A stretch of 37,206 nucleotides of DNA. Source: Gracilariopsis chorda. Its lineage: Eukaryota; Rhodophyta; Florideophyceae; Gracilariales; Gracilariaceae. This document shows positions 12,209 through 37,206 of the stretch, one piece after another (the stretch's first letter is position 1; the number at the start of each line of letters is the position of its first letter). A program made the position numbers and the translations under genes. The stretch spans positions 1-37,206 of the forward strand of contig NBIV01000514.1 in the NCBI GenBank assembly GCA_003194525.1, given 5' to 3'. Under the pieces are notes generated by a model. That model searched no databases. It was given only the letters and a program-made list of their open reading frames with translations, and was not told the DNA's origin.

Positions 12209-12210
12209 TC

Positions 12211-16845: not shown

Positions 16846-18870
16846 CCACAGGTGCAGAACGACATTCGTGCATACATGCGAGCGCGTGTGGTGGGCGCCG
16901 TCAATGCAGCTTGGAGACTTTTCGAGTTTCGACATGTTCACATCGTACCAAAAGTAGAGCGACTGGCCATTCACTTGGAAGGAGAGCGCACATTTCTGCT
17001 GAGAGGTCCAAACCAGCTCTTTTCTGCATCACAGCCGTCTACACTGGAGAGATACTTTGCAAGGCCCGAAGCATACGCGAACCTCGACTACCTTTCGTAC
17101 TTTGAAAAAGTGCGATTGTATCGCACGCTTACTGCCCGCGTGCTTAACCAATACGACGGAGACAGCACTCAGGTGCCCACAGACGACTGCGATCCGCCCA
17201 TGTTCGTGGTAGAGCGCACGGACGACGAGCAGTGTGTCGCAAGGATCAGAGCTGTTTCACCGTCGGACATTGAGCTCTTTGCTCTGCGCTTGCTGCTCAT
17301 GAATCACGGCTCGAGCTCTTATGAAGACGCAAGGACTTTCAACGGACAGCAGTATGGAACGTATCGTGAAACTGCGATTGTAAGCGGACTGCTCGCGGAC
17401 GGATCCGAGTTTGATATTGCATTCCAAGAAGCAGTGCACATATACAGCACGCCCTCAGAGCTACGACGTCTGGTTGTCACACTATACCAACAAGGCGCAG
17501 ACCCAGAAAAAATGGCCGTCGAAAACTGGGAGGCGTTATGTAGCGACATACATACAGGAGATGAGCAGCAACGAAAGCAAGAAATGTATCGACGGGTGGT
17601 GGAAATCTCAGACCGGCACGGAGGACGACTGCTTCGCGATCGCAGCTTCTTCTCCCAGCACCTACAGCATGATCATACAGCATTGACTGAGGCAAATCGA
17701 GCTACAATAACTCGAGACGCACGAGTGGTGCAAAATTCGTCAACTTTGCAGTCAAGGTACGCCACCTTAAAACCTCGCCAAAGACAAGTCATTGACACCG
17801 TCATTGCCGCATTGCAAAAACGACAGGCGCTGCAAGAGCGAACAAGCACTCCTGGAAACGTGTTCTTTGTCCAAGGATCCGCAGGAACCGGGAAGACATA
17901 CGTGCTCAACCTCCTTCGTGATATCGTTGAGTCGGAAGGAATGCTCTCTGAAATGACTGCTACAACAGGCATTGCAGCTTCGTTGTACGAAGGTGGCCGC
18001 ACTTTACATAGCCTGCTCGGACTGGGTGTAGCTGATAGGGACAGCACAAGCAGCACTACAGCCACTTTGTCAAAGTACGGTCCCCGATCTCAACGTGCAG
18101 AACTGCTACGCGAAATACAACTGCTCGTCTTGGATGAGGCGTCCATGCTCTCACGAAAGATCTTCGAACTCATGGGTGCGTTGCTCAAAGATCTTCGCTG
18201 CAGTGGAATGGAAAACCCGCCTCCGTTTGGGGGCTTGACCATCATTCTATCCGGCGACTACTCCCAGCTGCTTCCAGTGGTGCCGCAGGTGTACATGGAG
18301 GCCGAGCCAAGTGGTAATGTGAGACGAGTGTACACAAACATTCTCAACGAATTGCCGTGGAAGAGTGATCTGTGGACATTGTGCGCGGTTCAAGTGCTGT
18401 ACCTCACGGAACAAGTACGCCAAGCCGATGATCCTGCATTTGCGTCGCTGTTACGTTCCATTGCACGAAACACAATATCCAACAACGCTCCAATACCACT
18501 CAGATCTACCGGTGGCATGCAAACCGCCTACCAATTCCTGTGGAAGTGGCTCACAACACGACGCAAGGAGGATGTGAATCTCAGCAAAATGCTCATTGCC
18601 TCCACAAATCAGTTGGTCGATGAACACAATGCGGCAGCGCTGGATCTGTTTACTGGTGAACCCTTCACTCTTCCGTCAGCTACGACGGTACAACCTGACG
18701 GTGTACCACACTCAGAGCCCGACGTCACCAATACCTTTGTTCCCGAGTTTGCGTATCAGTATGCACCTACTGGTGTACCTCCTCATAACTTGGATTTGAA
18801 GATTGGTGTGCCAGTTATGGTCATTCGGAACGTGTTGCATCCGGCTGTGGTAACGGAAAGCTGTTCGTAG
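16846..18870 (+). CDS. Helitron PIF1-like helicase, N-terminal and core part, unit 3
   Basis: This copy has the same content as unit 2: linker, Walker A GSAGTGKT at 17875-17898, Walker B DE at 18133-18138, and LSGDYSQLLP. It is cut short at 18870 by the shared 1-base deletion near 18850. Residue DPPMFV near 17199 differs from DPPTFV in unit 2 and returns to the M seen in the other lineage. Confidence 0.85.
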   Translation, partial: PQVQNDIRAYMRARVVGAVNAAWRLFEFRHVHIVPKVERLAIHLEGERTFLLRGPNQLFSASQPSTLERYFARPEAYANLDYLSYFEKVRLYRTLTARVLNQYDGDSTQVPTDDCDPPMFVVERTDDEQCVARIRAVSPSDIELFALRLLLMNHGSSSYEDARTFNGQQYGTYRETAIVSGLLADGSEFDIAFQEAVHIYSTPSELRRLVVTLYQQGADPEKMAVENWEALCSDIHTGDEQQRKQEMYRRVVEISDRHGGRLLRDRSFFSQHLQHDHTALTEANRATITRDARVVQNSSTLQSRYATLKPRQRQVIDTVIAALQKRQALQERTSTPGNVFFVQGSAGTGKTYVLNLLRDIVESEGMLSEMTATTGIAASLYEGGRTLHSLLGLGVADRDSTSSTTATLSKYGPRSQRAELLREIQLLVLDEASMLSRKIFELMGALLKDLRCSGMENPPPFGGLTIILSGDYSQLLPVVPQVYMEAEPSGNVRRVYTNILNELPWKSDLWTLCAVQVLYLTEQVRQADDPAFASLLRSIARNTISNNAPIPLRSTGGMQTAYQFLWKWLTTRRKEDVNLSKMLIASTNQLVDEHNAAALDLFTGEPFTLPSATTVQPDGVPHSEPDVTNTFVPEFAYQYAPTGVPPHNLDLKIGVPVMVIRNVLHPAVVTESCS

Positions 18871-18872
18871 TC

Positions 18873-19304
18873 GTGCGTGTCGATCAATTTACGATGCAGG
18901 TGGCTCGATTCGACGAGAACATACAGGTGCTCGAACGACAGCTCCTGCATCGTATCGACTTCGAGTTTTCTTTCGCAGATATTCGCATGATTCAAAGGCA
19001 GTTTCCCATTCGTCTCGCGTTTGCAGCTACCGTTCACAAAGGACAGGGAAAGACGTTGGATGGCTTGGTTGTGGATGTGCGATCCAACTTCTTCTGCGCA
19101 GGTCAGTTGTATGTCGCATTGTCGCGCGTTCGAAGGAACGACCATGTGCTGCTCCTGCATGATCCCCAGCGCACACCCTCGAATGCGCACACAATTCATC
19201 CCATGCCTGTTCCCATCGCCAACCCAGTGCTGCCTGAAGCCATTCAATTCTGCATCCTCCACAACCGTAATCATATCTCTTGCATTCTTCTTTCATTGAA
19301 CTAA
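18873..19304 (+). CDS. Helitron helicase C-terminal fragment with altered end, unit 3
   Basis: This is the late helicase motif fragment ([21 protein letters not shown]), out of frame with the upstream part as in unit 2. A lost C in the CCC run near 19256 changes the end from FCIPPQP-stop to a longer tail reading into the 3' region, stopping at 19304. The tail is not expected to be a real feature of the protein. Confidence 0.7.
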   Translation: MRVDQFTMQVARFDENIQVLERQLLHRIDFEFSFADIRMIQRQFPIRLAFAATVHKGQGKTLDGLVVDVRSNFFCAGQLYVALSRVRRNDHVLLLHDPQRTPSNAHTIHPMPVPIANPVLPEAIQFCILHNRNHISCILLSLN

Positions 19305-19960
19305 ACTACTTGCTTTTCTGCTTTTGCTTTCTCCACCCTCTTTTTTCGTCACCACTGTTTATCACTCCTCCACCGCGGCGCGCAGCGCCACCCGCGGCCG
19401 AAGGCCGCTTCCTCTTGTCTCAACACCCCACTCTTAATGATTTACACATGTATGAGGGGGGTGTTGTTGACTGACGGGAGGCGTTGCGCCACAAAATTCG
19501 CTTTGCACGCCCCCGTTTGCGCATGCAAATCGCCCATTTGGCGCAACGCCTCCCCACCATTAAAAAAATTCAGCAGCAGCAGCAGCAAAGCGTTCAGTTA
19601 ATTAGCTGCTGCTGCTGCAGGTTGACTGTGCAATGGCTGCTGAATGGCTTGCAATACAATCAAATTGTAGTGCCAGCCACTCAGCAGCAGAAACCCAGCG
19701 GTTCATTCAGACACGTGGCAAATTGCACTGCGCCAGTGCATTGCATTCCAACACGTGGCAAATTGCACTGCGCCAGTGCAGCGTATACTGAAGTTTCATT
19801 GCAGACTTGCCTGCAACAGACGTATATACTGCACTGGCGCAGTGCCAAATGCATCTCGCTTGCTGACCCTAACCACTATTCTCCATCCCATTCAGGCTTG
19901 GCCAATAGCGCAGTGTCGTAACCTTTTGCTACTTTGGGCACTGTTTGCTGGCCTGGGACG
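19305..19960 (+). repeat. Helitron unit 3 tail
   Basis: This non-coding tail has the same hairpin series as unit 1. The 16-bp palindrome arms are at 19476-19491 and 19539-19554, and there are five CAG repeats near 19571-19585 facing CTG repeats. The direct-repeat pair and 17-bp inverted pair are present at 19711-19846. No gene is seen. Confidence 0.75.
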
Positions 19961-20510
19961 TAGGCAAGGCCGAGCTCGTGTGCAGGTCGCCACAAGAGTA
20001 ACCCACTAAGTACCACGGATCTGGGAAAAGTCGGGTGCTCCTCTGTGGTATACTGGTCGTTTGACGGCGATCAGGAAGTCTGAGGGTTTACCGGACCTAA
20101 TACCAGCTTGCTGTGCAGGGTCCGGGGCGGCCGCCGTGTCGTACCTCTTGGGGCCGGAAAGCACACTTCGGTGTGTGAGTAAAAGCAGACCAATCCTTAC
20201 AACCGGACGCGGGTTAAACGTCAAACGGCTTGAAAACCGGCTGGGCACACTCCGCCCGTCATAATCCAGCAGGAGTTTGTCGACAGTCCCTGTGCTGCGC
20301 ACGACTGCATCGGGTAAATATAAGCCTTGCAGCAATTTGTTTTTTTAATTGCTGCATGCGACTAGGCCCGGTGGGTGCAAAGCAACAAACTGCAACCAGT
20401 TTTTTCACTTTCAACTTTGTGTTTTATTGGGAATTATTCTGGAACTCTGGCAAATTTTTTAACGGTTTAAAAACATAGAATTGTTTTTTTCTTTTCTTTG
20501 GTAAATTGAA
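19961..20510 (+). promoter_or_regulatory. Helitron unit 4 leader with TATA-like site
   Basis: This has the same leader as unit 3, with the TATA-like AAATATAAGC at 20316-20325. No gene is seen. Confidence 0.4.
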
Positions 20511-22166
20511 ATGACGAGAGGAGGGCGACGTCTGAACTCTGGTGGCATCCGATCTAACTCGGGAGGTGCCAGAGACAATTCTGGAGGTGCCAGGTTGAAC
20601 GCAGGCGGTTCAAGGCAAAACGCTGGTGGTCGTCGCGTCGGCAGTGGTGGAGCACGGGCAGGAGCTGGAAGACCCCGAAGAGAACCAGCTCCTCCATCTC
20701 CAGATGAGTTGGGAGTAAATGAGAGCGGAGAACACGTTCAAGGACCTATTGTTCCAGTGGTTGAAGAAGACGAAATTACTCCTGCACCTACTTCGGTTGC
20801 AGCAGCAGTTAGCACAAGCGCCGCTGGAGCCAGTGGGTCTGCTGCCACAGATCTACCAACATCGTGCCCAATTCCTGGATTTCTGGAGTTTGTGAGAGGC
20901 CTTCCAAGTCACATTCCACCGCCTCCGATGCCTCCCCCTCTCCCACCGATGCCTGCAGAACAGATGCCTATTGCAATGGAATTGGAAGAGGATGAGATCA
21001 TCCCTGCTCCCTCACAGCCACCGCCATCACAGCAGCCTGCTCTGTCACAAGCTAAACAAGAGGAAGAACAGATGCCAGTCCCGATGGAAGTGGAAGAGGA
21101 TGAGATCACCCCGGCTCCCTCACACCCGCCGCCGCAGCCTGCGTTGCCACAAGCTGAACAGGAAGAACAACAGATGTCCATTCCGATGGAGGTGGAAGCG
21201 GATGAGATCACACCGGCTCCCTCACACCAGCCGCAGCATCAGCCACAGCAACAGCTTGATATGACGGTCATGCACTGTGCTGGGCGTCCTGATCGAGGAC
21301 TCTATCGCGTGTACTATGCGTGGGATTCCGTGGCAGCTCAGGCGAGGAATGATCCGGCCATCCGTGCAAGCGTGCCGGAGTTTGAGATGCTTCCCACTGC
21401 AGGTCAAAGGCGATGCGGAAGATGCGGCGAACACTCACACACGCTCTCCTCCTGCCCGTACGCGGACTGGACATTGAAAATACATAGCTGCAAGTATTGC
21501 GGCTGTGTTTTGCTTGGCACAGAGGTCACTGGAGTGTGCTGTGGAATGAAAAGAATGTCAGGATGGGGCGTCACGTTCCGCAGAAGGCATAGCAGTGAGT
21601 TGGTTCGCAGTCTTTATAGCCTGAGAGCCTTCCACAGCCATTTCCTCAACTTGAATACGCTCTTCGCGACGACGCAACTGCTCATGGACATGTCGTATGT
21701 GACGGGAGGCGGTCCCTCCTTTCTCAGACTTGAGGGCAACGCAGCTCTCGCTCTGCCCGCGCAGAACCAGAACAACACGCGCTACAGCTTTCTGTGGGGT
21801 ACTGGTCCACCTTCCTTGGATCCCTCTCACTATGCGCGTGCCAATTTGCGTGCGTTCATTCAAGACATCAACGGACGAGACATCGTGCCCAAGTTGTACG
21901 ATGTGATCAAGCCCAAGCCAGACGTGGTGCGTGAGCGGTACCGATCCATGCTTAGCACGCATCAACAACAACAAAATGCAGATACCACCGTCGATATCAG
22001 CATGCAGGCAGCAGAAGAGGGAGTAGTCGTACGTGGTTACGAAGGAACCCGAAGTGCCACAGTCAGTGCTCCTCACGCAGGTGCTGGGCCTCTCCCTGAA
22101 GATGCTCCTGGTGGCGGGCCAACCATGATGAGAACGCTCCTCGTGGATCCAACTGGCCTGTTATGA
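20511..22166 (+). CDS. Helitron ORF1 zinc-knuckle protein, unit 4
   Basis: This is a third intact 551-codon copy of ORF1, matching unit 3 including the GEHVQ variant. It keeps the RGG-like head, GRPRR, acidic/proline repeats and CCHC knuckle, and ends at the same in-frame TGA (22164-22166). ORF1 remains intact here although the following Rep and helicase are heavily broken. Confidence 0.85.
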   Translation: MTRGGRRLNSGGIRSNSGGARDNSGGARLNAGGSRQNAGGRRVGSGGARAGAGRPRREPAPPSPDELGVNESGEHVQGPIVPVVEEDEITPAPTSVAAAVSTSAAGASGSAATDLPTSCPIPGFLEFVRGLPSHIPPPPMPPPLPPMPAEQMPIAMELEEDEIIPAPSQPPPSQQPALSQAKQEEEQMPVPMEVEEDEITPAPSHPPPQPALPQAEQEEQQMSIPMEVEADEITPAPSHQPQHQPQQQLDMTVMHCAGRPDRGLYRVYYAWDSVAAQARNDPAIRASVPEFEMLPTAGQRRCGRCGEHSHTLSSCPYADWTLKIHSCKYCGCVLLGTEVTGVCCGMKRMSGWGVTFRRRHSSELVRSLYSLRAFHSHFLNLNTLFATTQLLMDMSYVTGGGPSFLRLEGNAALALPAQNQNNTRYSFLWGTGPPSLDPSHYARANLRAFIQDINGRDIVPKLYDVIKPKPDVVRERYRSMLSTHQQQQNADTTVDISMQAAEEGVVVRGYEGTRSATVSAPHAGAGPLPEDAPGGGPTMMRTLLVDPTGLL

Positions 22167-25923: not shown

Positions 25924-26476
25924 TCATATCTCTTGCATTCTTCTTTCATTGAATTAAACTACTTGCTTTTCTGTTTTTGCTTTCTCCACCCTCTTTTTTC
26001 CTCACCGCTGTTTATCACTCCTCCATTGCGGCGCGCAGCGCCGCCCGCGGCCGAAGGCCACTTCCTCTTGTCTCTCCATTATAATGATTTACTCCTCTAT
26101 GAGGGGGGGGTTCTTGATTGAATGGAGGCGTTGCGCCACAAAATCCTCTTGCACGCCCCCGTTTGCACATCCAAATCGCCCATTTGGCGCAACGCCTCCC
26201 TACCATTTAAAAAATTCAGCAGCAGCAGCAGCAGCAAAGCTTGCTGCTTACTGGCTGGCACTCCCGTAATGACTGCAGTGCCATCCAGTTACACAAAGCA
26301 ACGTGTCGCGCTTTCTCATCATTGGCAGGCACTGCAGTCAATTTAGGCACCTAAACACAAATCCATACGGCTCCCATACTCTAGGCGCCGCGGCGCCCCG
26401 TGGTTCTACGAGCGCTATTGCGAGCGCAAGCGAGCAAAGGGCTCGGAGAGCCTCCGAACGCCACGAAATACACAAA
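25924..26476 (+). repeat. Helitron unit 4 tail, diverged form (tail T1)
   Basis: This is the non-coding tail after the unit 4 stop. It has the GGCGCGCAGCGCC hairpin at 26030-26042, a GGAGGCG palindrome with arms at 26124-26138 and 26185-26200, and CAG repeats near 26217-26236. It then continues with sequence absent from units 1-3 (CTTGCTGCTTACTGGC onward), including a GC-rich palindromic patch near 26385-26450 (GGCGCCGCGGCGCC and GGCTCGGAGAGCC). The sequence after the palindrome reappears in the tail at 26932. Confidence 0.65.
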
Positions 26477-26530
26477 GCTACAAACACAACGCGGCGCGCA
26501 GCGCCGCCCACGGCCGAAGGCCGTTTCCAC
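26216..26530 (+). repeat. Direct repeat block R1 (copy 1 of 2)
   Basis: This block of about 315 bp starts in the CAG repeats and runs to the paired hairpins. It recurs at 26932-27242, about 715 bp downstream, with scattered substitutions and 1-base indels. Shared landmarks are GACTGCAGTGC, ACGTGTCGCGCTTTCTC, TAGGCACCTAAACAC and the GGCGCCGCGGCGCC palindrome. It belongs to the second tail subfamily and is not part of units 1-3. Confidence 0.75.
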
Positions 26531-26826
26531 TTGTCTCAAAACCCCCACTCTTAATGATTTACACATGTATGAGGGGGGTGTTGTTGACTGACGGGAGGCG
26601 TTGCGCCACAAAAATCGTCTTGCACGCCCCCTTTGCCCATGCAAAACGCCCATTTGGCGCAACGCCTCCCTACCTTCAAAAAAAATCAGCAGCAGCAGCA
26701 GCAGCAGCAAAGCGTTCAGTTAATTAGCTGCTGCTGCTGCATGTTGACTGTGCAATGGCTGCTGAATGGCTTGCAATACAATCAAATTGTAGTGCCAGCC
26801 ACTCAGCAGCAAAAACCCAGCGGTTG
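26477..26826 (+). repeat. Second partial Helitron tail (T2)
   Basis: This partial tail matches the 3' region of units 1-3 (unit 1 about 6045-6378) but has no coding sequence in front of it. It contains the paired hairpins (26493-26505 and 26511-26523), the 16-bp palindrome (arms 26593-26608 and 26655-26670), CAG repeats near 26688-26708 and the facing CTG repeats. It breaks off at GCGGTT near 26824, where the next palindrome-containing tail begins. Confidence 0.7.
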
Positions 26827-27245
26827 ATTGACGGGAGGCGGTGCGCCAATAAACCGCCCTGTATGCCCCTCTACGCGCTTGCAAAACTGCCATTTGGCGC
26901 AATGCCTCCCTACCATTTAAAAAATTCAGCAGCAGCAGCAGCAGCAAAGCTTGCTGCTTACTGGCTGGCACTCCCATAATGACTGCAGTGCAACCCAGTT
27001 ACACAAAGCAACGTGTCGCGCTTTCTCATCATTGGCTGGCACTGCAGTCAAATTTAGGCACCTAAACACAAATCCATACGGCTCCACATACTCTAGGCGC
27101 CGCGGCGCCCGTGGTTCTACGAGCGCTATTGCGATCGCAAGCGAGCAAAGTGCTCGGGGAGCCTCCGAACGCTACTAAATACATAAAGCTACAAAACCAA
27201 CGCGGCGCGCAGCGCCGCCCATGGCCGAAGGCCGTTTCCACTTGT
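26827..27245 (+). repeat. Third partial Helitron tail (T3) and right end of the array
   Basis: It begins with a diverged GGGAGGCGGTGCGCCA palindrome (arms 26833-26848 and 26895-26910), then CAG repeats, then the T1-type sequence, and ends after the paired hairpins at 27204-27216 and 27223-27233. Similarity to Helitron sequence stops near 27245. This is the only visible outer boundary of the array. No CTRR end adjoining a T, as expected for a canonical Helitron, is evident here. Confidence 0.65.
26932..27242 (+). repeat. Direct repeat block R1 (copy 2 of 2)
   Basis: This is the second copy of the block at 26216-26530. Its divergence from copy 1 is clearly greater than that between the coding units, which suggests that these tails are older. 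Confidence 0.75.
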
Positions 27246-28556
27246 TTGATGTCTAACAACTGTAGTCGAACGATAGCGAGAGCCTGGAGACACACTCGGC
27301 GATGAGTGGGAGGATCCAGGAATTGACAAACGGAGAGAGTGACAGGCTTGTATCCAATAGGGCGTCGCAAAAGAAAGCTTCCCTCGCTGAAGTTTGTCGT
27401 TTTGCGGCGGGTTCTGGTACCCGCTGTAGAACAAAAACCCTGATATCCAATAATTCACAAGCAACCAACTCTCCTTTTACGAATATCAGACCCAACCCAC
27501 CTCCATCTAGCTATCATCTCCTCAGCTGTTCCACATTACTAAATTTGATAACATGCACTGAGAAATCTCTCAGGATGAGACCCGACATAAAATTGTTTGT
27601 TATGCTCTTTCTTCTCGATACTATGTGGTGGAATACAAACGAGCTTCGCTTGAAAACAGTTTAAGCTCTTCAAACGCAGCAAAGCATCTCGAAAAAGAAA
27701 AGGTTCAAAAGAGTCGGGTAACAAAAAATGTATCCACGCTCAAGTCGGCACAGAATGGTATGAATTCATATTATGTGATAAAGATGACAATTATATCGTT
27801 CATATGAACGCTAACAGATAGCGGATCTCCCATGATCTTCTTCCTGTAATTGAAAAAATGCATCAAAATTGTGAAAATCAACCCCCATACTCTATGCATG
27901 GCAAAAAGAGAGAAAGAAAAACAAGTTGGCGATCAGTGGACCCTCTGAGATTGGAAATGTGGTATGTTAGAACAGTGAGTGTTATGTAAGCGCTTTCCCC
28001 AGTATTTGGCTTTGTAAAATCTAGTGTGAGTGCTTTATAAAGGCTTCTGAAGACCTATGTTCAAGGTAGTTTCCGTTTTTTCTCAAATAGAAGTCCTGAA
28101 CAGCAGATATAGATACAAAACCTCTTTTCTTTTGAGCAGAGCTCTTGGTACATTAAACAATATCAAGCATGGTCGTCATCATAGTTTCCATGTGTTTTGC
28201 GATATCTACATGCATTTGATTCGCCAATTGTTGTTTGGAATTACCTGCTACTCTTCTTTTTTCTACTTTCACCGACAATACCAGACGTTTTTTTCGCATT
28301 TTTCATTTCCTTTTTTGCATGTGCAGGGTTTTCATCGTGGTTTCGGAGCACAGTAGCCTGTTTTTTGGCTTGAATATTACGGTATATTCGTTTTGCACGG
28401 CGCAATTCGGGTGGAATATGTAGATCTTCGGTTGCTGTCCGCGTTTAATCCGGATGATCCAACTTAACCTTCAAACTTTCTGTCATTCTTCGCGGTACAT
28501 CGTTCTTTTCAGCCCACTGCGTGAAGTTTATTGCAACTCTGTCCCAATGGGTTCTG
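27246..28556. other. AT-rich interval with no recognisable gene
   Basis: This lies between the Helitron tails and the retrotransposon LTR. It is more AT-rich than either neighbour and contains only short open frames (the longest about 120 codons from 27302) with no motif I recognise. No tRNA, rRNA or repeat is apparent. It is probably intergenic host DNA or decayed repeat. The hairpin comb described for the retrotransposon is not seen here, except for CCCAATGGG at 28543-28551 just outside the LTR. Confidence 0.5.
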
Positions 28557-29375
28557 TGTTGCAACGCCCCAAAGGGGAGAAACACCGAAAGACGTTCGGC
28601 ATCTTTCCTCCGTGGAGGTGAACCCAGTTGGGTAGAGCCCCTCTAGGGGTGGCACGGCGGAGCCGGTTTGTAAGACCGAGGCCACCTTTCGCGACTAGCG
28701 CAAGAGGGTTTAGGACAAGAATCGGTATCCGCGAGAGCGGGAATGCGTCCTCGTCAGAGGTAGGTTTCCACGTAAGTGGGGGTGTGCGAGCGGATGCGCA
28801 CACGAGAGCCGCGGATAGCGGGAGGTGCCCCTAAAAAGGGGAAAAGGAATGGCGAAGAGGAGGAAGAGAGGACGAAGTGAGTTGCGAGAGCGACGGGGAC
28901 GAACGGCGATGCCGGTAACAATATCCCTATACAGGGCGCAACACCAATGTAATTGAAATAATATGACTCCCAGTGATGGGTCCCTTTAGATGTGCAAGGG
29001 GTTAGATGTCCCGTGGTTCACGGCGTTTCCCTCCAAGGAGGAGTAGAGCACGCGCGCAAGCGGTAACAACTAGAGCCAATTCCCCAGGTTAAGGTCCCTT
29101 TTTGGGGAATGTTTACTGGTGCGACGGCAGTGCGCCGTCGCACTAAGTACTTGCTTCCCTGAAATGGGTGTGAAAATAATAAATAAAATCAAGTAAAATA
29201 CTCCACATTTCGTGGCAACATCCACTACTGTGGCCAACCGCCAATTGACCCAAAACCGTGTCCCACGTGTCAATACCCACCATTGTGGGGCGTAGTTCAT
29301 ATACACACTACACAACCGATAATATCGGGAAACAATCAAGTACCAGGAATCTCTCCCTGAGGGCGTTGCACTACA
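28557..29375 (-). repeat. 3' LTR of the Ty3/gypsy element
   Basis: This is placed by three signs. On the minus strand it begins TGTAGTGCAACGCCC directly after a polypurine tract. It ends in CGTTGCAACA, giving TGT...ACA termini. The two ends carry a 10-bp inverted repeat (TGCAACGCCC at 28560-28569 and its complement at 29361-29370). The length is 819 bp. A TATA-like GTGTATATGAA lies on the minus strand near 29298-29308. The partner LTR is outside the window, so neither identity nor a target duplication (candidate TTCTG, 28552-28556) can be checked. Confidence 0.7.
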
Positions 29376-29387
29376 TCTCCCCCCCCT
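29376..29387 (-). promoter_or_regulatory. Polypurine tract (plus-strand primer site)
   Basis: The minus strand reads AGGGGGGGGAGA immediately before the TGT that opens the LTR. This is the expected place and composition for the RNase H-resistant primer of plus-strand synthesis. Confidence 0.75.
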
Positions 29388-29648
29388 AAGACGGGAAAAC
29401 GACCGCGGACGCGGAGGGTTCCCAGACGAAAATGGGTGATAAAAGCGCGTACGCCGTCTCCGGTTCTTCTTTCCTGGCATAGCCGGCTATTGTAGTATAT
29501 TGTTGTGGGGAGCTAGCTGCTCCCTTGAATAAACTTTCCCGTTTTGAACGGTGATTCTCGGTTGAGTTCCCCGTCTTCGACGGACCTTGCCTTGTTATCC
29601 TTTCCTATTGCCCTCCGTTTGCGCGGCAACGTTACCCAACTTGGGCAT
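29388..29648 (-). other. 3' untranslated interval between pol and polypurine tract
   Basis: This stretch of about 260 bases follows the likely pol stop and precedes the polypurine tract. No coding motif is recognised in it. Confidence 0.45.
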
Positions 29649-29910
29649 TTACCAGCGTGGCTGGAGCTGCAGTTCCTCTTTGAGGGTGGTATCGCACGAC
29701 CTGCGACCGTGGGAGGTGTTCGATTGACTCCCACGTATCCCCACTGGGGTCATACCCGTACCAGCGGACGCGGTATTGTAGAATACCATCCTGGTCCCAG
29801 GTGTGTCCGACAAGTCGGTCTACTACGAACTCTCGTTCGTAGACCTGCCGGCCGTGCCGGGGGTGGTTGTACTCCCTTGCGGGGCTGCCCGCTGTGCGGT
29901 ATAATGTCCC
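29649..29910 (-). CDS. pol: Chromodomain at the C-terminus of pol
   Basis: Minus-strand codons 29841-29686 read as a chromodomain: EREFVVDRLVGHTWDQDG, then QYRVRWYGYDPSGDTWES, then IEHLPRSQVVRY. The aromatic W-Y-G-Y core and the DTWE signature are those of Ty3/gypsy chromodomains, which bind histone marks and guide integration into chromatin. The frame is open back to about 29910. Just after RYH a 1-base shift is likely, because the neighbouring frame continues LKEELQLQPRW and ends with TAA at 29649-29651. The domain is overlaid by a run of hairpins (29739-29842). Confidence 0.8.
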
Positions 29911-31200
29911 TTAGCAGGGTGTTCGGCGATAACTCCGGCGTTGCCGTGCGCTGTGATAGCGGCCGCTGCTCATGCGGGAAGATATACCTCAAGAGGGTGT
30001 GTGGTGCCACGGTTTTCACCGGCAAGTCATTCCCCATTGGGGCAGGTTCATTTCCGCTTTCGCGGTATTGCGGGCGAACCGCCAGTCGGCGGGGGACTTG
30101 GGCTCCGCCTTCGTGGTTGAGCTCATGAACCGCGAGTTTGCGGGAAGATGACCACTCCTGCGGAATCGGCAATTCCACAATCCCCTGGGGGGTCCCGTGC
30201 GACACGGTGATTGGGTGGCAAACCGCCTCCCTGCCAGGCGCACGAGCGCTCTGCACCATACGTTCCGGCGATGCCGTGGTGTCCCCGGTTACTGACGGGT
30301 TGCCTGGGGCTAACTCCGGTACACCGGTATTTTGGTCAAAATTCCCCATTGGTAGGTGCCGGGCAGGTGCCGATGACACCCTTTTCAGGGGCTTGGCCGC
30401 TAAGTGCGGTGCACCGTCTCCACGCGGAGGAGCAGCGTCCGGTATGACCGGTTTTGAGCGTGCGATGGCGTGCGCTTTTTCCAGGTTCCTCGGTTCTTCC
30501 TCGCAGCGTTGCGAGAGGTGGCGCAAATTATTCCCCGGAACGGGGGGTTCAATTCCGTCAACGACGGGAGGCATTTCCGGTGCTTGCGAGCCAGGGCTTC
30601 AAGCTTCGACTGCGGCTTGGCTGCCTTTTTCCCCAAGAGGGGTGTGGGTATTTCCCTGTGAGGCCGGCGTATCTGGGCGCCCCTTCTCCGCAAGGCGCGG
30701 GTCTGATCGACCTGATTGAACAGCTTCCACGTGGGCATCCGCCAGTGGCGGCTTCGATGCATCGCTCTGCTCAGGGGATTGAGGGCGATCGTCGCCGTAG
30801 TCCCGTAACGGGGATCCCTCCCTGACAGGGGTGTGCGGTGACTGCGTTTCAACTTCCCGTTGCGACGACGATATCGTTCCTCGAAAACGAGTGCTCTCCT
30901 CCTCCTCTTCTTAGACGGAACGGCGGGATAAGGGATAAAATTCCCCACCTGGCGGGTATAAATGCGCGCCAGTGGAGCCGACGTGGTAGGGGAGGGCGCT
31001 GAGAGGCCCGAATTACCCGCTGAGCCGGTGAGTCGGACAGAGTCGGTAGGTCTGAGAGTCCCCGGCTGGGGTGTGGTAGTACCGTAGGCCTAGTACTCCC
31101 GGATGGTTCCGGTGTTGAAGAGTTTGTAGAAACGGGGTTGCCTGGATCCAGGACTACCTCTCACGAGGGAGGAGGGACAAGGACAACACACGATCACGGG
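29911..31200 (-). CDS. pol: Long basic/proline-rich linker between integrase and chromodomain
   Basis: About 1.3 kb separates the end of the integrase core from the chromodomain, much longer than the few dozen residues I would expect. Open frames on the minus strand (30400-30948 and 29750-30574) overlap in different frames. They are rich in Pro, Arg and Ser and include a nuclear-localisation-like PSKKRRRRALVF near 30900. No domain is recognised. This is also one of the densest parts of the hairpin comb. Whether one continuous protein passes through it cannot be decided because the frame breaks. Confidence 0.45.
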
Positions 31201-32366
31201 AAATCCGTTCGTGCGTGTCGCCCATCTCTACCACGACAGTGTCGGTGTTTACAGAGATGACCTTGGATGGTCCATCCACCACAGGCGAGAGTTTATGGCG
31301 ATTCTCCGGTTCCGGGTTGTAGTACTCCTTCCTGATGAAGATGTAGTTATTCGCCCGAGTCGGGACATTTTTCCTCGCAAGCGAGCATCATAATCCCGCT
31401 TGTAAGCGGCTTGGGCCCGTGCCATAGACGTCCGCGCAGCGGGGACCAGCTTGGAAAGCCATTGCCATTGCTGCCGGTAGATACCCACGGATGGGAAATT
31501 GTCCAAGGTAGCTTGGGGTTCCAGCGCCACAGGCGGGGGTTTTTAGATACAACCAACTCGAATGGCGAAACTCCGGTAGTCCGGTGTACCTGCGTGTTGT
31601 ACGCGTAGGTTACCGCATCAGCGTACATGTTCCAGTTCTTTGGGTGGTCTGCGACGTAGGAACGTAACGCCGCGAGTAACGTCCAGTTAAACCGTTCAAC
31701 TTGCCCATTACACTGGGGGTGGTAGGTAGTCGTGAACAAGTTCTTGACATCCAGGATGCGACAAACATCCTGGAAGAACTTGCTCACGAACTGCTTCCCG
31801 TTGTCAGAGAGCACCTCTACAGGGGGACCGTAGACAAAAATCCAGTGCGTCACCAGAGCCTGGGGCACTGTGAGAGCGGTTATCCTCCGAAGAGGGACAG
31901 TCCGTACCAGCTTAGAAAAGCGGTCGGTAATGACAAGTAGAAACTTGTTTCCACGTTTCGTGGTGATTAATGGTCCAAGAATATCGATCGCGATAAACTC
32001 GAGCGGCGCCCTTGCGGGGAATAGTTTCATCTTCTTCGCATTTTTGCGGAGTTTGAGGCGATTCTTCGCGCATTCGCTACAAAACCGCACAGTTGCGTAG
32101 CAATCCACCGCCATTGCGGGCCAATAGAAATCCCTTCGCAGGGTTAGGTAGAGTTTCCTCCCACCTGGGTGACCTCCAATGGGGGCGTAGTGTGATAGAT
32201 GCAACACCCGCGATTGCAGGGAATGTGGTACCACAATCTGTGGGCGGGCTTCGACCTTTCTTACGAGGTAGCCTTTGTCGTTTACCCCGAAAGGGACATC
32301 TTCACCACCGTTGATACGGGCACGAATTCTCGTACAGAATGGGTTGCCGAATTGTTCTCGGATCAT
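31201..32366 (-). CDS. pol: Integrase
   Basis: One open frame covers 32366-31347. It starts after an HYAPIGGHPGGRK zinc-binding segment (His pair, then C-S-E-C about 30 residues on). The catalytic triad follows: D in FIAIDILGP, D in LSDNGKQF and E in GQVERFN, the last two separated by 35 residues as in D,D-35-E integrases. YAYNTQVHRTTGVSPFELV is the usual post-catalytic block. After a 1-base shift near 31370 the C-terminal domain continues as NNYIFIRKEYYNPEPENRHK, then KLSPVVDGPSKVISV and ERISRDRV (about 31360-31210), the GPY/F-like module. Integrase inserts the cDNA into the host genome. A 58-nt inverted repeat lies within the catalytic core (31731-31788). Confidence 0.9.
31731..31788. repeat. 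Long inverted repeat inside the integrase core
   Basis: The arms pair as CGTGA (31731-31735), CAAGTTCTT (31737-31745) and CCAGGATG (31751-31758) with CATCCTGG (31766-31773), AAGAACTTG (31774-31782) and TCACG (31784-31788). That gives 22 paired bases, a 5-nt bulge on one side and a 7-nt loop. The same bases encode the conserved stretch from QFVSKFFQD to the LFTTTYHP block of integrase. Confidence 0.85.
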
Positions 32367-32890
32367 TTTTCCGGTGATACGGGTACAAAGTTTCCCGGTA
32401 ACGGGTTCTCAGATTTATCTCGCGATGCGAGTAGTTCGTCAAATTCAGCATCCTCGTCCCAGTTTTCTGGCCCAGCCTCGACGGCACATTCCGGATCATC
32501 CGGGTCTATGGCCATGAAACATGGGACTTCATCATCCTCCGTTGGGAGTGCTTCCCCACTTGTGGGTAACCGCGACAGGGCGTCGGCTTGGGTGTTCTGC
32601 GCGCCCTTTTTATAAATGACTTGAAAGTCATATTCCGCGAGGCGCAGTCTCCAGCGCATGAGGCGTCCCGACGGGTCGGAGATATTCATCAACCACCTCA
32701 GCGAGGAATGATCCGTGTACACGGTGAAGTGAACTCCCATAAGGTAGGGGCGCAGAGTGGTCATCGCCCATACGACGGCGAGGCACTCCTTCTCCGATAC
32801 GGAGTAGTTCCGCTCATGAACATTGAGCGAGCGCGAACAATAACCCATTGGGTCGTTTCCCCCTCGGGCGTGGTTTGAAAAAGAGCACAC
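32363..32890 (-). CDS. pol: Ty3-type RNase H and connection to integrase
   Basis: This open frame has MGYCSRSLNVHERNYSVSEK, then ECLAVVWAM, YTDHSSLRWLMN, MRWRLRLAEYDF and QADALSRL, in the order found in Ty3/gypsy RNase H. These carry the acidic residues E (ECLAVV) and D (YTDHSS). It degrades the RNA strand of the RNA-DNA hybrid. The last 60 residues are acidic and lead into the integrase frame, which overlaps by a few bases. The N-terminal VDTDSSHYQVGCAL part lies in the preceding open frame (near 32900). Confidence 0.88.
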   Translation of the reverse strand: MCSFSNHARGGNDPMGYCSRSLNVHERNYSVSEKECLAVVWAMTTLRPYLMGVHFTVYTDHSSLRWLMNISDPSGRLMRWRLRLAEYDFQVIYKKGAQNTQADALSRLPTSGEALPTEDDEVPCFMAIDPDDPECAVEAGPENWDEDAEFDELLASRDKSENPLPGNFVPVSPEK

Positions 32891-33369
32891 CCGACTTGGT
32901 AGTGGCTCGAGTCCGTATCTACGGAGTATGGCAACCCAAGTTTTGGGAGATGTAGGATTGGTGCTGATGTGACAGCCTCCTTCAAGGAGTTAAAAGCTTC
33001 CGATTGCTCGGGCGTAAATGTTCCCAGTTTTGGGGGGTTCCCCTTTCGCAACAACGCGTTCAGGGGCGCCGCAGTATCCGAAAAGTTCGGGATAAACCGT
33101 CGATAGACGTTGACCAGCCCCAAAAAGGAGCACAGTTCCATTTTAGTACGGGGTTCTTTCGCCTCGACGAGGGATTTGACTCGAGCTTTCTCGATCGCTA
33201 ACCGTCCAGGACGGATAATGTGACCCAGATACTTCACAGTATCTGTGAAAAACTCGCATTTCCTCACTTGAGGGTTATTCCCGCATCGCGTAGTACGGTC
33301 AGCACGTCTTGGACGTGAGTGAGATGGTCGTCCAACGAGATGATATATCATCAAAGGTAGACCAGACAA
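32761..33369 (-). CDS. pol: Reverse transcriptase palm/thumb and start of RNase H
   Basis: The minus-strand frame carries RKCEFFTDTVKYLGHII, then MELCSFLGLVNVYRRFIPNF and YSVDTDSSHYQVGCALF, which are the RT thumb/connection and the RNase H start. The catalytic box is at 33347-33362. The bases spell V-Y-L, then D-D only if one T is skipped, so the YLDD motif is split by a 1-base insertion in a T run. Upstream the frame shifts again, and 33370-33532 holds the remaining palm in pieces. Confidence 0.8.
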   Translation of the reverse strand: MSGLPLMIYHLVGRPSHSRPRRADRTTRCGNNPQVRKCEFFTDTVKYLGHIIRPGRLAIEKARVKSLVEAKEPRTKMELCSFLGLVNVYRRFIPNFSDTAAPLNALLRKGNPPKLGTFTPEQSEAFNSLKEAVTSAPILHLPKLGLPYSVDTDSSHYQVGCALFQTTPEGETTQWVIVRARSMFMSGTTPYRRRSASPSYGR

Positions 33370-33532
33370 CTCCCGCCACTTAAAGCGGTTGAGTAGAATA
33401 TCTACTGCACGCTGAAAGTTGGGGGGCGTTGGTTAACCCAAATGGCATCCGCTTGAAGCAGTACGTTCCTGCGTGGCAGATGAATGCGGTTTTGTCGCGA
33501 TCCTCCTGTCTGATAGGTACTTGCCAATATCC

Positions 33533-33754
33533 CTAATTGGCATCAAGGGCCGTGAACACGGTGGCGTCTCTAAGGGAGTCAATGCACTCGTCCATACGAG
33601 GGATAGGGTACGTGTCCCTAACGGTCACGGCATTGAGCCGGCGGTAGTCGACACAGAACCTCCAGGTTCCGTCGGCCTTTAAAGCCAGTACAACTGGGGA
33701 TGCCCAGGGTGATTGAGCGGGCTCAATCACACCTGCGCGGAGCATCTTGTCCAC
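33533..33754 (-). CDS. pol: Reverse transcriptase fingers/palm block
   Basis: This open block has GVIEPAQSPWASPVVLALK, then FCVDYRRLNAVTVRDTYP and FTALDAN, the most conserved part of Ty3/gypsy RT, including the first catalytic Asp in LDAN. It ends where SGYWQ would be expected, at a frame break. Two strong hairpins fall inside it: a 9-bp stem with a 2-nt loop at 33710-33729 and a 7-bp stem at 33522-33542. Confidence 0.85.
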   Translation of the reverse strand: MDKMLRAGVIEPAQSPWASPVVLALKADGTWRFCVDYRRLNAVTVRDTYPIPRMDECIDSLRDATVFTALDAN

Positions 33755-33801
33755 TTGGGACTGCTCCTCTTCCCGAGCTTTCGGACTGCCCTGTAAGGGG
33801 G

Positions 33802-34143
33802 TTATGCAACCGGTCGCGCACCGGGGATTAAATCGATCCGGTGTTCCGTTTCATTAATCTCGCCAAGCGAGCCATCCCACATTGTGTTGAATTCCCGTAA
33901 CATGGTACGGAGTTTGTCGCGGTGCGACTCTGGCACGTGGCTGAAGTCCAGCGCTTCAAGTGCTTTTTCCGGATCATTCCAGTCGTTGCTCGATGGAGCA
34001 TTGTCCTGTGGAACAGGTGTGGTTCGCAATTCGGAGTTACTCGGTATTTCGACGCTGAAGTAGCGGTTTCCTCCCCCTCCTAGACTTGACGTCTTCGAAC
34101 GGCGGGGCGAACTCCTCAGAAGGGGTGGTAACTCCGAGTACAT
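33802..34143 (-). CDS. pol: Pre-RT segment of pol
   Basis: This frame encodes LREFNTMWDGSLGEINETEH and RIDLIPGARPV, the linker that precedes the RT fingers in Ty3/gypsy polyproteins. It ends at 33802 by a frame break; the next conserved block starts at 33754. Its first third is Pro/Ser-rich. Confidence 0.75.
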   Translation of the reverse strand: MYSELPPLLRSSPRRSKTSSLGGGGNRYFSVEIPSNSELRTTPVPQDNAPSSNDWNDPEKALEALDFSHVPESHRDKLRTMLREFNTMWDGSLGEINETEHRIDLIPGARPVA

Positions 34144-34536
34144 CGGCGGCTGTCATCTTCGTTGGCAGCATTCCCATAGGATGGGGGTTACACTCCCAAT
34201 TACTTGGTGTTTGACCAGATACTGGGGGTGTTGCCAAGGTTAGCAACCAATATCCGGAAAGGAACATCCGGGGAAATGGAGAAAATTCCATTAGCTAGCG
34301 CCAGCTGGGATTTCTCGTACAACGAGGCGAGGGGTTGTATAACCCGAAGACCGTGTTGACGGGAAATTACCTGCACCCAGACTTGGGACTCAGCCGGTAT
34401 AGAAACCGAGGCAGCGACGCGGAGCTTGGTGGACTAGCGGGACGCGGGCGGTGGTTCCTGCGCAGCAGGGAGCGGAACTTGTTTCCGAGAGGACCGCTTT
34501 AGCGGGCGGCAAACAATCGGAACCGACGATCCGTCG
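34144..34536 (-). other. Protease-RT spacer without recognised domain
   Basis: This stretch of about 390 bases lies between the protease and the pre-RT linker. Short minus-strand frames are present (for example 34037-34291), but no motif is recognised. It is probably the variable spacer of the polyprotein, with frame breaks. Confidence 0.4.
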
Positions 34537-34945
34537 TCAAGTTCTACACGCCTGAGGCGGGCTGATTGCGTCGACAAATCTGTCGCAGTAATCACATCCC
34601 AGTATCACTGGTGCTGCCAATGAATGGCAAACGATGAAGTCCAACTTCACCACGGAGGTACCAAGTCTCACGACGACTGTGCCCACCGTTTGTAACGGAT
34701 TGTTTGTTCGCATCCAAAATGTCGGGGACCGCGTCAGAGCGGATATGTGACCGCACAAGCGGGGGTAACAATGATTCCACAACAAAGTTGGGGCCTGCAC
34801 CTGTATCCAGGACGGTGAGAAACCTCACCATAAACTGGGGATCAAGGCCAAGGTCGGCATAGACCTTATAATTGCGTTTGGCCAAGACCAAGACTCTACC
34901 GGGAATCCGGGGACTTTTACTCCGTATCCACGGGCGACGCAACAC
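34537..34945 (-). CDS. pol: Retropepsin-type aspartic protease
   Basis: The frame 34945-34592 has the active-site box FLTVLDTGAGPNFV. A 1-base shift near 34720 moves the rest into the frame 34800-34537, which carries NPLQTVGTVVVRLGTSVV and the C-terminal APVILGCDYCDRFVDAI, equivalent to the ILG-D block that packs on the active site. The protease processes Gag and Pol. As written, the domain is split over two frames. Confidence 0.82.
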
Positions 34946-35078
34946 ACCGAGTGCGCAGAGTCCGCTTCAGCGGTGTCTTTCCTCGAAAGGACTTTCACCG
35001 GGGAGCGAGGCGGGGACGCCTCGGGCGCCAACAGCCTCGTTCTTGAGGACGTCTCTCCCAAAGGGGAGACTCCCTCAG
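34946..35078 (-). other. Gag-protease linker
   Basis: This short Pro/Ser/Arg-rich stretch lies between the end of the Gag frame at 35079 and the protease frame. It is open in the frame 35061-34825. It has no recognised motif. Confidence 0.4.
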
Positions 35079-35888
35079 TTAGTTTTCCGCCTTCGGCGGT
35101 GGGTTGGGTTCCTCGACAACGAGTGCTTCATCCCGTTGACGGGGGTTTCTATCCGCATAAGCGGGGGTTGCAACGGATGGTTGCACGATCTCCCGAATCG
35201 GGGTGTATGAAGCTTGCCGCGCACGCGGGGTCTGTGGTAGGGCATGGGAAAAGTCCGTTCTAGCACGGAAGTAGGAAGCCGTCGGGACGGAACGTTTCTC
35301 CTCTGGAGTGAGGGCCTCGTAGTTTGCCACCACCTTGGCCATATCCTTCAGTGAGCAGATACACTGAGGCGAGGTATGGCCATAGGCATAACAAAGGTGG
35401 CAAATGAGAGCCAACACCGCGACAGGCGGATTATTATTCCGAGTATCGGAGAAGCGAACCGCAGGGCGGGTGTCAGTCCATGCAGGCCGTTGATAACGGG
35501 AATGACCGTTTGAAAACGGGAGTCGTTGGGGTTGGACCCCACCGTTTCCACCGTAAAGAACGGGATCTTCTGTTCCCGTATCACGGGTCATCTCCGTCGT
35601 CAACGGCAAATCACTGGTAAGTATCGACACACCATCCCCTTGCACTAAATGCACGGTATCAAATCCCTGTCTAGGGTTCCCATCCCCAGTGAGCGGGAGT
35701 GAGGAAGCTTTGCTTTCTATCAACAACGCCTTGGTGGATTTAGACCGATTGTTCGGAGTTCTTGCACGAAGTGCATCCCCTTCCGCTCGGGCGTGTTGGA
35801 CCAGCTCGAGATAGGTGATCCTCCGCTTGTCCTCCCGATAACGGGTAACTAAACCCCGGATTGCCGGGTCAAGACCATCAATGAACAT
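35079..35888 (-). CDS. gag: Gag C-terminal part with CCHC zinc knuckle
   Basis: This is a 269-codon minus-strand frame. The first 50 residues (FIDGLDPAIRGLVTRYRED and YLELVQHARAEGDALR) look like the end of a capsid domain. A single zinc knuckle CHLCYAYGHTSPQC (C-x2-C-x4-H-x4-C) follows near 35410-35370 and would bind RNA in the nucleocapsid. The tail is Pro/Arg-rich. It overlaps the preceding Gag frame, which points to a 1-base shift near 35880. Confidence 0.82.
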   Translation of the reverse strand: MFIDGLDPAIRGLVTRYREDKRRITYLELVQHARAEGDALRARTPNNRSKSTKALLIESKASSLPLTGDGNPRQGFDTVHLVQGDGVSILTSDLPLTTEMTRDTGTEDPVLYGGNGGVQPQRLPFSNGHSRYQRPAWTDTRPAVRFSDTRNNNPPVAVLALICHLCYAYGHTSPQCICSLKDMAKVVANYEALTPEEKRSVPTASYFRARTDFSHALPQTPRARQASYTPIREIVQPSVATPAYADRNPRQRDEALVVEEPNPPPKAEN

Positions 35889-36406
35889 GGTACTGCGCGC
35901 TCCCCAGCGGGGTATACGTTACCACATCTGTGGAAAGCCTTGTGAATGCGCACCGAGTAATCAGTCTCGGTCTCTCCAGCACGCTGGCGTGTATCTCGCG
36001 AAGCGAGGATAGCCTGCTGAATAGCGGTGTTTGTGGCGTACGAGCGCAGAAGATACTGCACAGCCTCCAGCCCGCAAGTAACCCCTCCCTCAGAGGCGCG
36101 AGAAGATCCTCTGACAGAGTTGTATTGGTCCTCCTCCACTCCCCGTAAGAAATACGGTAAAGCCAAATAGGCTTGTCCCTCATTCATACCGAGGATATCG
36201 GCCTCCGCTACAAAGCGGCATAGGAAATCCAGTACTAGGACCGGGTCCTCTCCAGTAAAATACTGGTTGCAGAGCGAGAGCTGCATTCGCTTAATGCATT
36301 CTCGCACCTTTCCCGTACCACGGGGCGTACGTCCAAGTGACGAATCTTCGAGCCGGTAGTACCGGTATGATAAAAGCTTCCGGTAATCCGGGTTTGTCGG
36401 TTTCAA
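35849..36406 (-). CDS. gag: Gag capsid-like domain
   Basis: This frame is like the retrotransposon Gag domain, with VRECIKRMQLSLCNQYFTGE, DPVLVLDFLCRFVAEADILG and EGQAYLALPYFLRGVEEDQY. The F-x-G-x-DP and LPYFLRG words are typical of Ty3/gypsy capsids. It would assemble virus-like particles in the cytoplasm. It overlaps the next Gag frame (from 35888) and the previous one (to 36291), so Gag is broken by two shifts. Confidence 0.8.
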   Translation of the reverse strand: MKPTNPDYRKLLSYRYYRLEDSSLGRTPRGTGKVRECIKRMQLSLCNQYFTGEDPVLVLDFLCRFVAEADILGMNEGQAYLALPYFLRGVEEDQYNSVRGSSRASEGGVTCGLEAVQYLLRSYATNTAIQQAILASRDTRQRAGETETDYSVRIHKAFHRCGNVYPAGERAVPCSLMVLTRQSGV

Positions 36407-36866
36407 TTCCCGGAGACCGGGGTGTCTTCTCCCCTTCTGGCGGGGTTCGGATCACACCTTCAGTGGCCGATGACCGCTTCGAGCGGGAGGAGTAGCCTCG
36501 CTTCTCGTTCTCCGAGTCGGAGTCCGAGGAGCTTGAGCTAACCGAATGGTTTCGGGATGAGTCCGACGATGTCGAAGAATCGGAGTCCGAATATTTTCGG
36601 TGGTGCTTCCGTCGATGACGGCGTTTCTTCTTCCCAGCAAGCTGGTCGTTGTGCGATGCCTCGTTTACTGGATCATCCGGGGATGGTTTGTCCCTGAAGA
36701 CGAACTGCTCCAGCGTCTCCAGGCGGGCACCAATCCGATGAAATCGGGCTTCAACTCCTTCTTTGAAGGTAGCGGGTTGTCCCAAACTCTCCAACACGGA
36801 GTTGACGTCAGACCGTAAAATACGGAGTTCCTCGGCGACCTCCTTTACGGGGGTTGCCAAGACCAC
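36291..36866 (-). CDS. gag: Gag N-terminal part: coiled-coil and Ser-rich segment
   Basis: The minus-strand frame begins with helical, heptad-like sequence (VKEVAEELRILRSDVNSVLE, then RFHRIGARLETLEQFV). A basic cluster KKKRRHRRKHHRK and an acidic/serine stretch (SDSDSSTSSDSS) follow. It looks like a multimerisation region plus a charged linker. The open frame runs a little upstream (RELKSLQEVV) to the hairpin CCCTTGTAGGG at 36885-36895, where the frame shifts to the segment beyond. Confidence 0.65.
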   Translation of the reverse strand: MVLATPVKEVAEELRILRSDVNSVLESLGQPATFKEGVEARFHRIGARLETLEQFVFRDKPSPDDPVNEASHNDQLAGKKKRRHRRKHHRKYSDSDSSTSSDSSRNHSVSSSSSDSDSENEKRGYSSRSKRSSATEGVIRTPPEGEKTPRSPGIETDKPGLPEAFIIPVLPARRFVTWTYAPWYGKGARMH

Positions 36867-36880
36867 CTCTTGGAGGGATT

Positions 36881-37206
36881 TTAGTTCCCTACAAGGGTGT
36901 CATGGGCGGTCCACAGAGCGTGGACCTGGGATTCCAGGGAAGCCCCCTGGGGTGTGTTATCGCCCGTTCCACGGGGGCTTGAAGCCGCGACAGCGGGAGC
37001 AGGCTGGGGTGCCTGGGGCACTGCCGCAACAGCCGGAGTCGATGCTGCATTCCCCTGCGGGGGTGATGACGAGGGCAAAAGGAGGTTCCGGGGTTCCCGG
37101 TCGGGGGTATCATTGCGGAATGAAGCGGCGCCAGCACGGCTGGGACTTGTCCGTATAGGGGTACAAGGTACGAACCGAACTTCGGAAGTGTCCGCGTTGT
37201 CGCGGG
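36881..37206 (-). CDS. gag: Putative start region of Gag (partial)
   Basis: This is a Pro/Ala-rich minus-strand frame (37078 to 36881) that ends at a stop just after LWTAHDTLVGN and appears to continue into the coiled-coil frame through a 1-base shift. No convincing ATG is seen; the sequence from 37079 to 37206 is not assigned. The true Gag start may lie outside the window. Confidence 0.4.
   Translation of the reverse strand, partial: RDNADTSEVRFVPCTPIRTSPSRAGAASFRNDTPDREPRNLLLPSSSPPQGNAASTPAVAAVPQAPQPAPAVAASSPRGTGDNTPQGASLESQVHALWTAHDTLVGN

Follow-up and report, generated by a model that had tools for sequence, protein, structure and literature searches.

What makes an LTR (long terminal repeat) retrotransposon write nearly its whole length as short hairpins is the question raised by contig NBIV01000514.1 of the red alga Gracilariopsis chorda, analysed here over 37,206 nucleotides (nt; hereafter the window), which ends inside a Ty3/gypsy-type element lying at 28555..37206. 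A previous sequence-only reading of this locus had claimed that perfect stem-loops follow each other through the element about every 20 nt. Hairpins were defined here as perfect stems of at least 4 base pairs (bp) with a loop of 2-6 nt (or 3-5 nt where stated), and a non-overlapping set was counted. The claimed density was borne out, as the region 28555-37206 contains 282 hairpins vs a shuffle mean of 126.0 (standard deviation (SD) 9.9; highest of 100 shuffles 155), and in the element group as a whole the excess is two to three times chance. In our judgement it is an even call that elements of this clade are hairpin combs from end to end, through coding and non-coding sequence alike, with hairpins that must form in both polarities and with selection acting on local self-pairing everywhere and on no fixed structure or motif. 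The parts of the element are as follows.

28555..37206, minus strand: Ty3/gypsy-type LTR retrotransposon (3′ LTR, pol, partial gag), truncated by the contig end, with short hairpins throughout
28555..29375, minus strand: LTR of 821 bp, TG...CA, 28.0 hairpins/kb (loop 3-5) vs 9.3 shuffled
29376..29387, minus strand: purine-rich tract on the sense strand, seen in the sequence, adjoining the 3′ LTR; presumably the plus-strand primer, as in LTR retrotransposons generally
29738..29919, strand-neutral: hairpin run with nine centres named in the sequence-only reading, 7 of 9 recovered within 0.5 nt
31347..32366, minus strand: integrase with H2C2 zinc domain and rve core (Pfam E 2e-13 and 2.3e-11)
32363..33369, minus strand: RNase H region, split between two broken frames that overlap (Pfam RT_RNaseH, 8.2e-28, and RT_RNaseH_2)
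35361..35402, minus strand: CCHC zinc knuckle CX2CX4HX4C of the gag region (motif scan)

The assignment to Ty3/gypsy follows the TG...CA LTR with its adjoining purine tract and the RNase H and integrase present in the window. The copy is broken into many reading frames, and the contig end falls inside gag. Its reverse transcriptase (RT) region lies upstream of RNase H on the sense strand, with the RVT_1 profile match seen in the relative L006, where the domain order is RVT_1, RNase H, H2C2, rve. Two minus-strand frames of the window (29750-30574 and 30400-30948) gave no chromodomain match, and the domain is present in another relative, P0001.

All six sections of the element are enriched (loop 2-6): the LTR with 30.5 hairpins/kb (z 5.7), section 29376-31340 with 32.6/kb (z 8.3), integrase with 30.4/kb (z 4.8), RNase H/RT with 29.4/kb (z 5.2), protease/linker with 36.2/kb (z 7.3) and gag with 35.2/kb (z 9.6). 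The same was observed in five open frames from the three families of such elements in this genome, designated A, B and C, the last being that of the window: L005 (A) contains 106 hairpins, L006 (B) 102, and L016, L023 and L014 (all C) 93, 58 and 45, vs 62, 60, 44, 29 and 24, respectively, in shuffles preserving both codons and dinucleotides (z 6.3 to 15.4). With purely codon-preserving shuffles included the range is z 5.6 to 19, so the excess survives the dinucleotide- and codon-preserving controls proposed earlier, and since it outlasts codon-preserving shuffling, synonymous choice makes much of it. That the comb is element-wide and not a by-product of one protein is therefore upheld, the enrichment running from the LTR through gag.

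Outside the element the comb is not seen. The Helitron DNA at 1-26000 (14.0/kb vs 14.7 shuffled) and the AT-rich spacer at 27251-28540 (14.0 vs 15.6/kb) stay at the shuffle level, as had been judged by eye. At 30 LTR loci the comb stops at the LTR edge, with 601 hairpins in 51.1 kb of external flanks (11.8/kb) and 1175 in 39.4 kb of internal sequence (29.8/kb), the former figure including the flanks L050, itself a gypsy RT (28.1/kb), and L059, which is hairpin-rich and perhaps a further comb element. On the strength of this contrast and of the nearly random private mutations described below, a host-wide mutational bias was rejected. Nothing was found in favour of chance, base composition or a coding by-product as the source of the comb, and the shuffle controls, the flank contrast and the control frames refute it, leaving this explanation a negligible probability.

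The comb consists of hairpins with 4-5 bp stems and 3-5 nt loops, at about 24-33/kb in the three families. Stems longer than 6 bp are few, and a whole hairpin measures 11-14 nt. With the three families pooled, loops of 0 nt are not enriched (0.94), loops of 3, 4 and 5 nt are enriched 3.5-, 3.0- and 2.0-fold and loops of 6-8 nt 1.6- to 1.3-fold, while loop-1 cases occur in about the number expected from loop-3 hairpins with a chance inner pair. Read from the sequence, this geometry matches that of the smallest hairpin that is physically possible. The internal pair of stems with loops 3-4 is enriched 5.4-fold for GC and 3.9-fold for AT, vs 1.14-fold for GU, 1.17-fold for AC and 1.01-fold for other combinations, and as only the two pairing classes are enriched, it is pairing and not a motif that is favoured. 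In the window's family the base of the 5′ arm is C-rich, with a CC..GG peak at 11 nt and CC..CC peaks at 21-23 and 41-44 nt, CC and GG thus alternating about 11 nt apart and CC returning at about 21-22 nt. The C-rich arm base is absent in L072, a relative introduced below, so the trait shared is the pairing and not the CC..GG word. Binding sites for a protein dimer were rejected, as the arm sequences vary.

The median distance between hairpin centres is 22.5-27 nt with a soft mode at 20-22 nt, and in six of six sequences the coefficient of variation of the spacing differs by less than 2 SD from that of hairpins placed at random without overlap. The phrase 'about every 20 nt' is therefore right as a density with a soft mode and wrong as a period, and the strict 20-nt comb was rejected. 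In family C pol, gaps below 3 nt are scarce (0.04 vs 0.12) and those of 3-9 nt common (0.36 vs 0.27). The two named centres not recovered, 29878 and 29894, are replaced in the non-overlapping set by one overlapping hairpin at 29885.5. A fixed conserved structure was likewise rejected as the main picture: centres common to families number 8-17 of 67-103 hairpins vs 1.2-1.4 expected and the remainder differ. At the shared centres double changes are few (9 of 186 pairs).

It had also been suggested that two helical turns separate successive hairpins, to which the CC..CC peak at 21-23 nt lends weak support and the nearly random spacing none. More broadly, a role at the DNA level in the integrated copy, be it in chromatin, helical phasing, recombination or integration, would agree with the CC/GG alternation at about 11 nt, the CC recurrence at about 21-22 nt and the strand symmetry of the pairing shown below. 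Duplex DNA would not be expected to extrude stems as short as 4-5 bp, however, and the minimum loop size points to single strands, L072 has no C-rich arm base, and single-copy private mutations fall nearly at random relative to stems, so a role of this kind appears quite unlikely.

Selection for folding of the sense RNA predicts tolerance of G-U pairs. This was examined at an internal pair of five-pair stems, the other four pairs being Watson-Crick and the loops 3-6 nt, in families A, B and C and L072. The enrichment is 3.48 for GC, 2.74 for AT, 1.16 for GU, 1.15 for AC and 1.05 for other combinations, vs 2.91, 2.63, 1.61, 1.33 and 1.00, respectively, in four RNA phages; the G-U tolerance expected of selection on the RNA strand is thus missing in the comb elements. 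With loops 3-4, GU exceeds AC at the two loop-proximal pairs (1.64 and 2.08 vs 1.08 and 1.52) and lies below it at the other three. RNA folding z values are alike on both strands, the mean being below zero in each comb sequence tested (sense strand: -0.2 to -1.5 in families A-C, -2.3 in L072). Because GU behaves as AC and the strands fold alike, the pairing is strict and on the whole symmetric between the strands. Folding of the sense RNA as the only target of selection, comparable to the genome-scale ordered RNA structure found in certain RNA viruses, would account for the dense local hairpins, the fold z below zero and the lean to GU at the loop-proximal pairs. It is nevertheless very unlikely, given that G-U is overall no more favoured than A-C and that the sense strand of families A-C folds no better than the antisense strand, and the ordered RNA structure proposed in the sequence-only reading is disfavoured as the sole cause.

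The whole genome (91.3 Mb, 1081 contigs) was searched for further copies, and the pol region was found at at least 40 places including the window, most with 93-96% identity. Two other copies, found on C82 and C144, match that of the window at about 99% and share the 10 bases adjoining its LTR, pointing to a segmental duplication. Families A, B and C share 62-66% nucleotide identity in pol, and their densities (stem of at least 4 bp, loop 3-5) are 24.1, 24.1 and 31.1/kb vs about 10 shuffled. The comparison of gypsy copies and relatives took 25 of 70 loci. Among the matches listed (120 of 660), a protein from the red alga Agarophyton chilense with 63% identity joins the window's family in the RT tree with a Shimodaira-Hasegawa-like approximate likelihood-ratio test (SH-aLRT) value of 92; the tree has 31 rows, namely 10 loci and 21 of the 120 listed proteins, L078 being left out. 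The comb is also present in L072 (22.0 vs 10.0/kb, z 8), which has 52% amino acid (aa) identity and whose best match to this genome is 70% alike over 496 of 1501 nt. L072 comes from a metagenome-assembled genome (MAG) titled Robiginitomaculum and another relative, L071, from one titled Moorena; both are gypsy sequences inside public bacterial MAGs, evidently through eukaryotic contamination. The same zinc-knuckle motif as in the window is found in both.

Other elements do not share the trait. The comb is absent from L073-L078, only L075 having a weak excess (14.0 vs 10.9, z 2.5), and in the same genome a Copia RT frame is near the shuffle level (12.6 vs 11.0/kb), as are a DDE transposase frame (9.8 vs 9.9/kb) and two frames with sub-threshold matches to integrase (10.0 vs 10.1/kb) and RVT_1 (9.0 vs 9.7/kb). 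No relatives were found in viral contigs in two scans. Among the sequences tested the comb is limited to one Ty3/gypsy clade, so the proposed check on other gypsy copies and relatives is passed by this clade and not by gypsy elements at large. Such a restriction points to the element's own machinery and not to the host.

Whether the hairpins are made by mutation or kept by selection was addressed in a set of 30 family C copies, 25 of which entered the tree tests and 28 the integrase part, with 28 of 30 LTRs in the LTR test. With L018 as reference, private non-CpG substitutions are about equally frequent in all three parts, at 0.125 in stems, 0.123 in loops and 0.113 in spacers; as this comparison carries an ascertainment bias from the reference copy, the tree-based tests were relied on instead. 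The private non-CpG changes destroy a stem in 0.284 and create one in 0.083 of cases, vs 0.297 and 0.084 at random, and with four reference copies the values are 0.24-0.28 and 0.07-0.09 vs 0.27-0.30 and 0.08-0.09. At CpG sites losses are commoner (0.44-0.48). When changes were polarised on the tree with root branches excluded, stem losses made up 9 of 97 changes on deep (lineage) branches and 143 of 556 on terminal ones (p 2e-4), that is, they are about one third as frequent on the former. Gains are not raised on deep branches (7/97 vs 53/556, p 0.57), and a mirror-repeat control shows no drop in losses (11/97 deep vs 44/556 terminal, p 0.32). With root branches included, the 152 deep changes comprise 12 losses and 21 gains, and at third codon positions losses are 5/54 deep vs 49/171 terminal (p 0.003).

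The turnover of individual stems tells the same. Among 110 distinct events at 61 places, 97 involve a single arm substitution and none a compensatory pair. Two or more arm changes occur in 13 events (12%) vs 22% of 1381 same-shape shifted places, and two or more changes across the span in 34% vs 37%; the shifted places replaced earlier control windows (19% with at least two changes), which were unlike hairpins in shape. These figures bear on the possibility that the element's own RT perfects quasi-palindromes by self-templating, a mutational or repair bias which would fit the strict Watson-Crick pairing, the clade restriction, the spread over coding and non-coding sequence and the slight rise of deep gains when root branches are kept (21/152 vs 57/614). 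It would, however, be expected to make gains or double changes commoner, neither of which is clearly seen, while losses on deep branches are suppressed instead, and it is regarded as unlikely; the palindrome-making mutational process named in the sequence-only reading is disfavoured with it. Since deep losses are suppressed and neither gains nor double changes are clearly raised, purifying selection is the simplest reading. In simulation, an element decaying neutrally drops from 31/kb to 13/kb once 0.3 substitutions per site have accumulated, and that families A, B and C keep their density at 62-66% identity supports maintenance. The data thus support purifying selection on pairing as what maintains the hairpin density in the active lineage, even as the places of the stems change. 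Within this family, L016 and L018 are nearly identical upstream of alignment column ~3300 and diverge by up to 30% past it, in the integrase part, probably a mosaic from template switching between subfamilies.

As to what is selected for, we tentatively favour, at somewhat less than even odds, an element-wide comb of minimal Watson-Crick hairpins serving the folding of both RNA and complementary DNA (cDNA) in the particle. There the hairpins would come into play while the element is single-stranded, in either polarity, as genomic RNA and as minus-strand cDNA. Both strands would fold immediately into local knots, the folded strands would stay compact and evade long-range pairing and re-annealing, and the one-knuckle nucleocapsid would handle this fold during packaging and reverse transcription.

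The same strand symmetry, and the covering of the LTR, are also in line with evasion of host RNA silencing, in which a hairpin in many of the ~22-nt stretches of both strands would hinder target sites, guide RNAs and sense/antisense annealing. This is a serious rival because two strong matches to the Piwi domain occur in this genome, as do two Dicer-like open frames in which RNase III domains are paired. Neither the Copia nor the DNA-transposon frame examined has a comb, however, and the spacing is hardly more even than random, which makes silencing evasion rather unlikely. No RNA-dependent RNA polymerase was matched in this genome, nor in any control genome, so that result is uninformative. 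A further 44 short Piwi-domain matches form mostly opposite-strand pairs within ~1.5 kb (C483, C648, C777, C944, C626, C143, C345, C48, C882, C995, C317, C785), the pair on C483 recurring every 8,008 bp. Their arrangement resembles that of a repeated element that contains part of an Argonaute gene in inverted-repeat form and might serve to counter silencing.

Several observations weigh against the comb as a folding device of the particle or against its generality. The packaging and cDNA role is putative, and any mechanism would go a step beyond selection on pairing. The fold z of family B is near zero (-0.2 sense, -0.3 antisense), in family C it is the antisense strand that has the more stable fold, and this reading does not account for the C-rich 5′ arms, which are absent in L072. 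L071, with 51% aa identity, has no 4-bp comb (11.4 vs 10.5/kb) and only a modest excess of stems of at least 5 bp (5.0 vs 3.1/kb, z 3.3); as its knuckle and divergence are similar, the knuckle alone is insufficient. The selection test draws on a small number of deep changes, the integrase part shows the same direction at p 0.09 (losses 17/103 deep vs 102/413 terminal), the LTR has too few deep changes (4/18 vs 100/372), and losses among terminal changes outside the L016 frame are below random (32/195 vs 0.30). The within-genome controls are one frame of each kind, and the flank L059 (415-1011) reaches 21.8 vs 8.4/kb in an open frame without Pfam match, the Pfam check covering 10 of 13 flank frames with L067 (14.6 vs 8.7/kb), L044 and L051 left out.

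Outside the element, the window contains a tandem array at 7187-22166, in which three frames (551, 446 and 672 aa) recur every 6,662 bp. The 446-aa frame matches Helitron_like_N, and in the third copy only the 551-aa frame is at full length. At 26001-27250 there are repeats 463-711 nt apart, CAG runs and longer palindromes, with a hairpin excess distinct from the comb.

No precedent for the comb was found in the accessible portions of the open-access literature on retrotransposon stem-loops, ordered RNA structure, red algae, small RNAs and RNA phages (PMC3713064 and PMC3700990 among them), which is weak evidence. If the favoured reading is true, a structural demand along the whole length shapes a retrotransposon's sequence, reaching into synonymous choice, with hairpins packed more densely than in the four RNA phages measured; the folding of retroelement RNA and cDNA in the particle would become testable, and there would be a natural case for separating RNA-strand from two-strand selection. 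The comb would also serve as a sequence-only mark for one clade of elements.

Among known systems, hairpin elements of fungal and algal organelle DNA are mobile insertions in spacers. They share with the comb the many small palindromes, but the comb crosses coding sequence and turns over mostly by point changes. RNA phages of the Leviviricetes (MS2, PP7, AP205, GA) are also hairpin-rich, with 13.0-20.5/kb (loop 3-5), whereas the comb elements exceed this, at 24-31/kb in A, B and C, and have no G-U tolerance (phages: GU 1.61, AC 1.33). Some animal RNA viruses have genome-scale ordered RNA structure spread along the whole genome. The comb is alike in its genome-wide spread, and its hairpin counts show the excess over composition and coding controls, with the fold z weak in family B, but it is strictly Watson-Crick, strand-symmetric and built of 11-14 nt units. 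A last comparison is with Ty3/gypsy itself (Metaviridae), in its chromovirus-like form, with which the element shares the TG...CA LTR, the purine tract, the CCHC knuckle and the RT-RNase H-integrase order, the relative P0001 having the chromodomain as well; it is the hairpin comb that sets this clade apart, as the comb is missing from all seven gypsy-type loci that lie outside the group (L071 and L073-L078), although L071, for stems of at least 5 bp, and L075 show small excesses.

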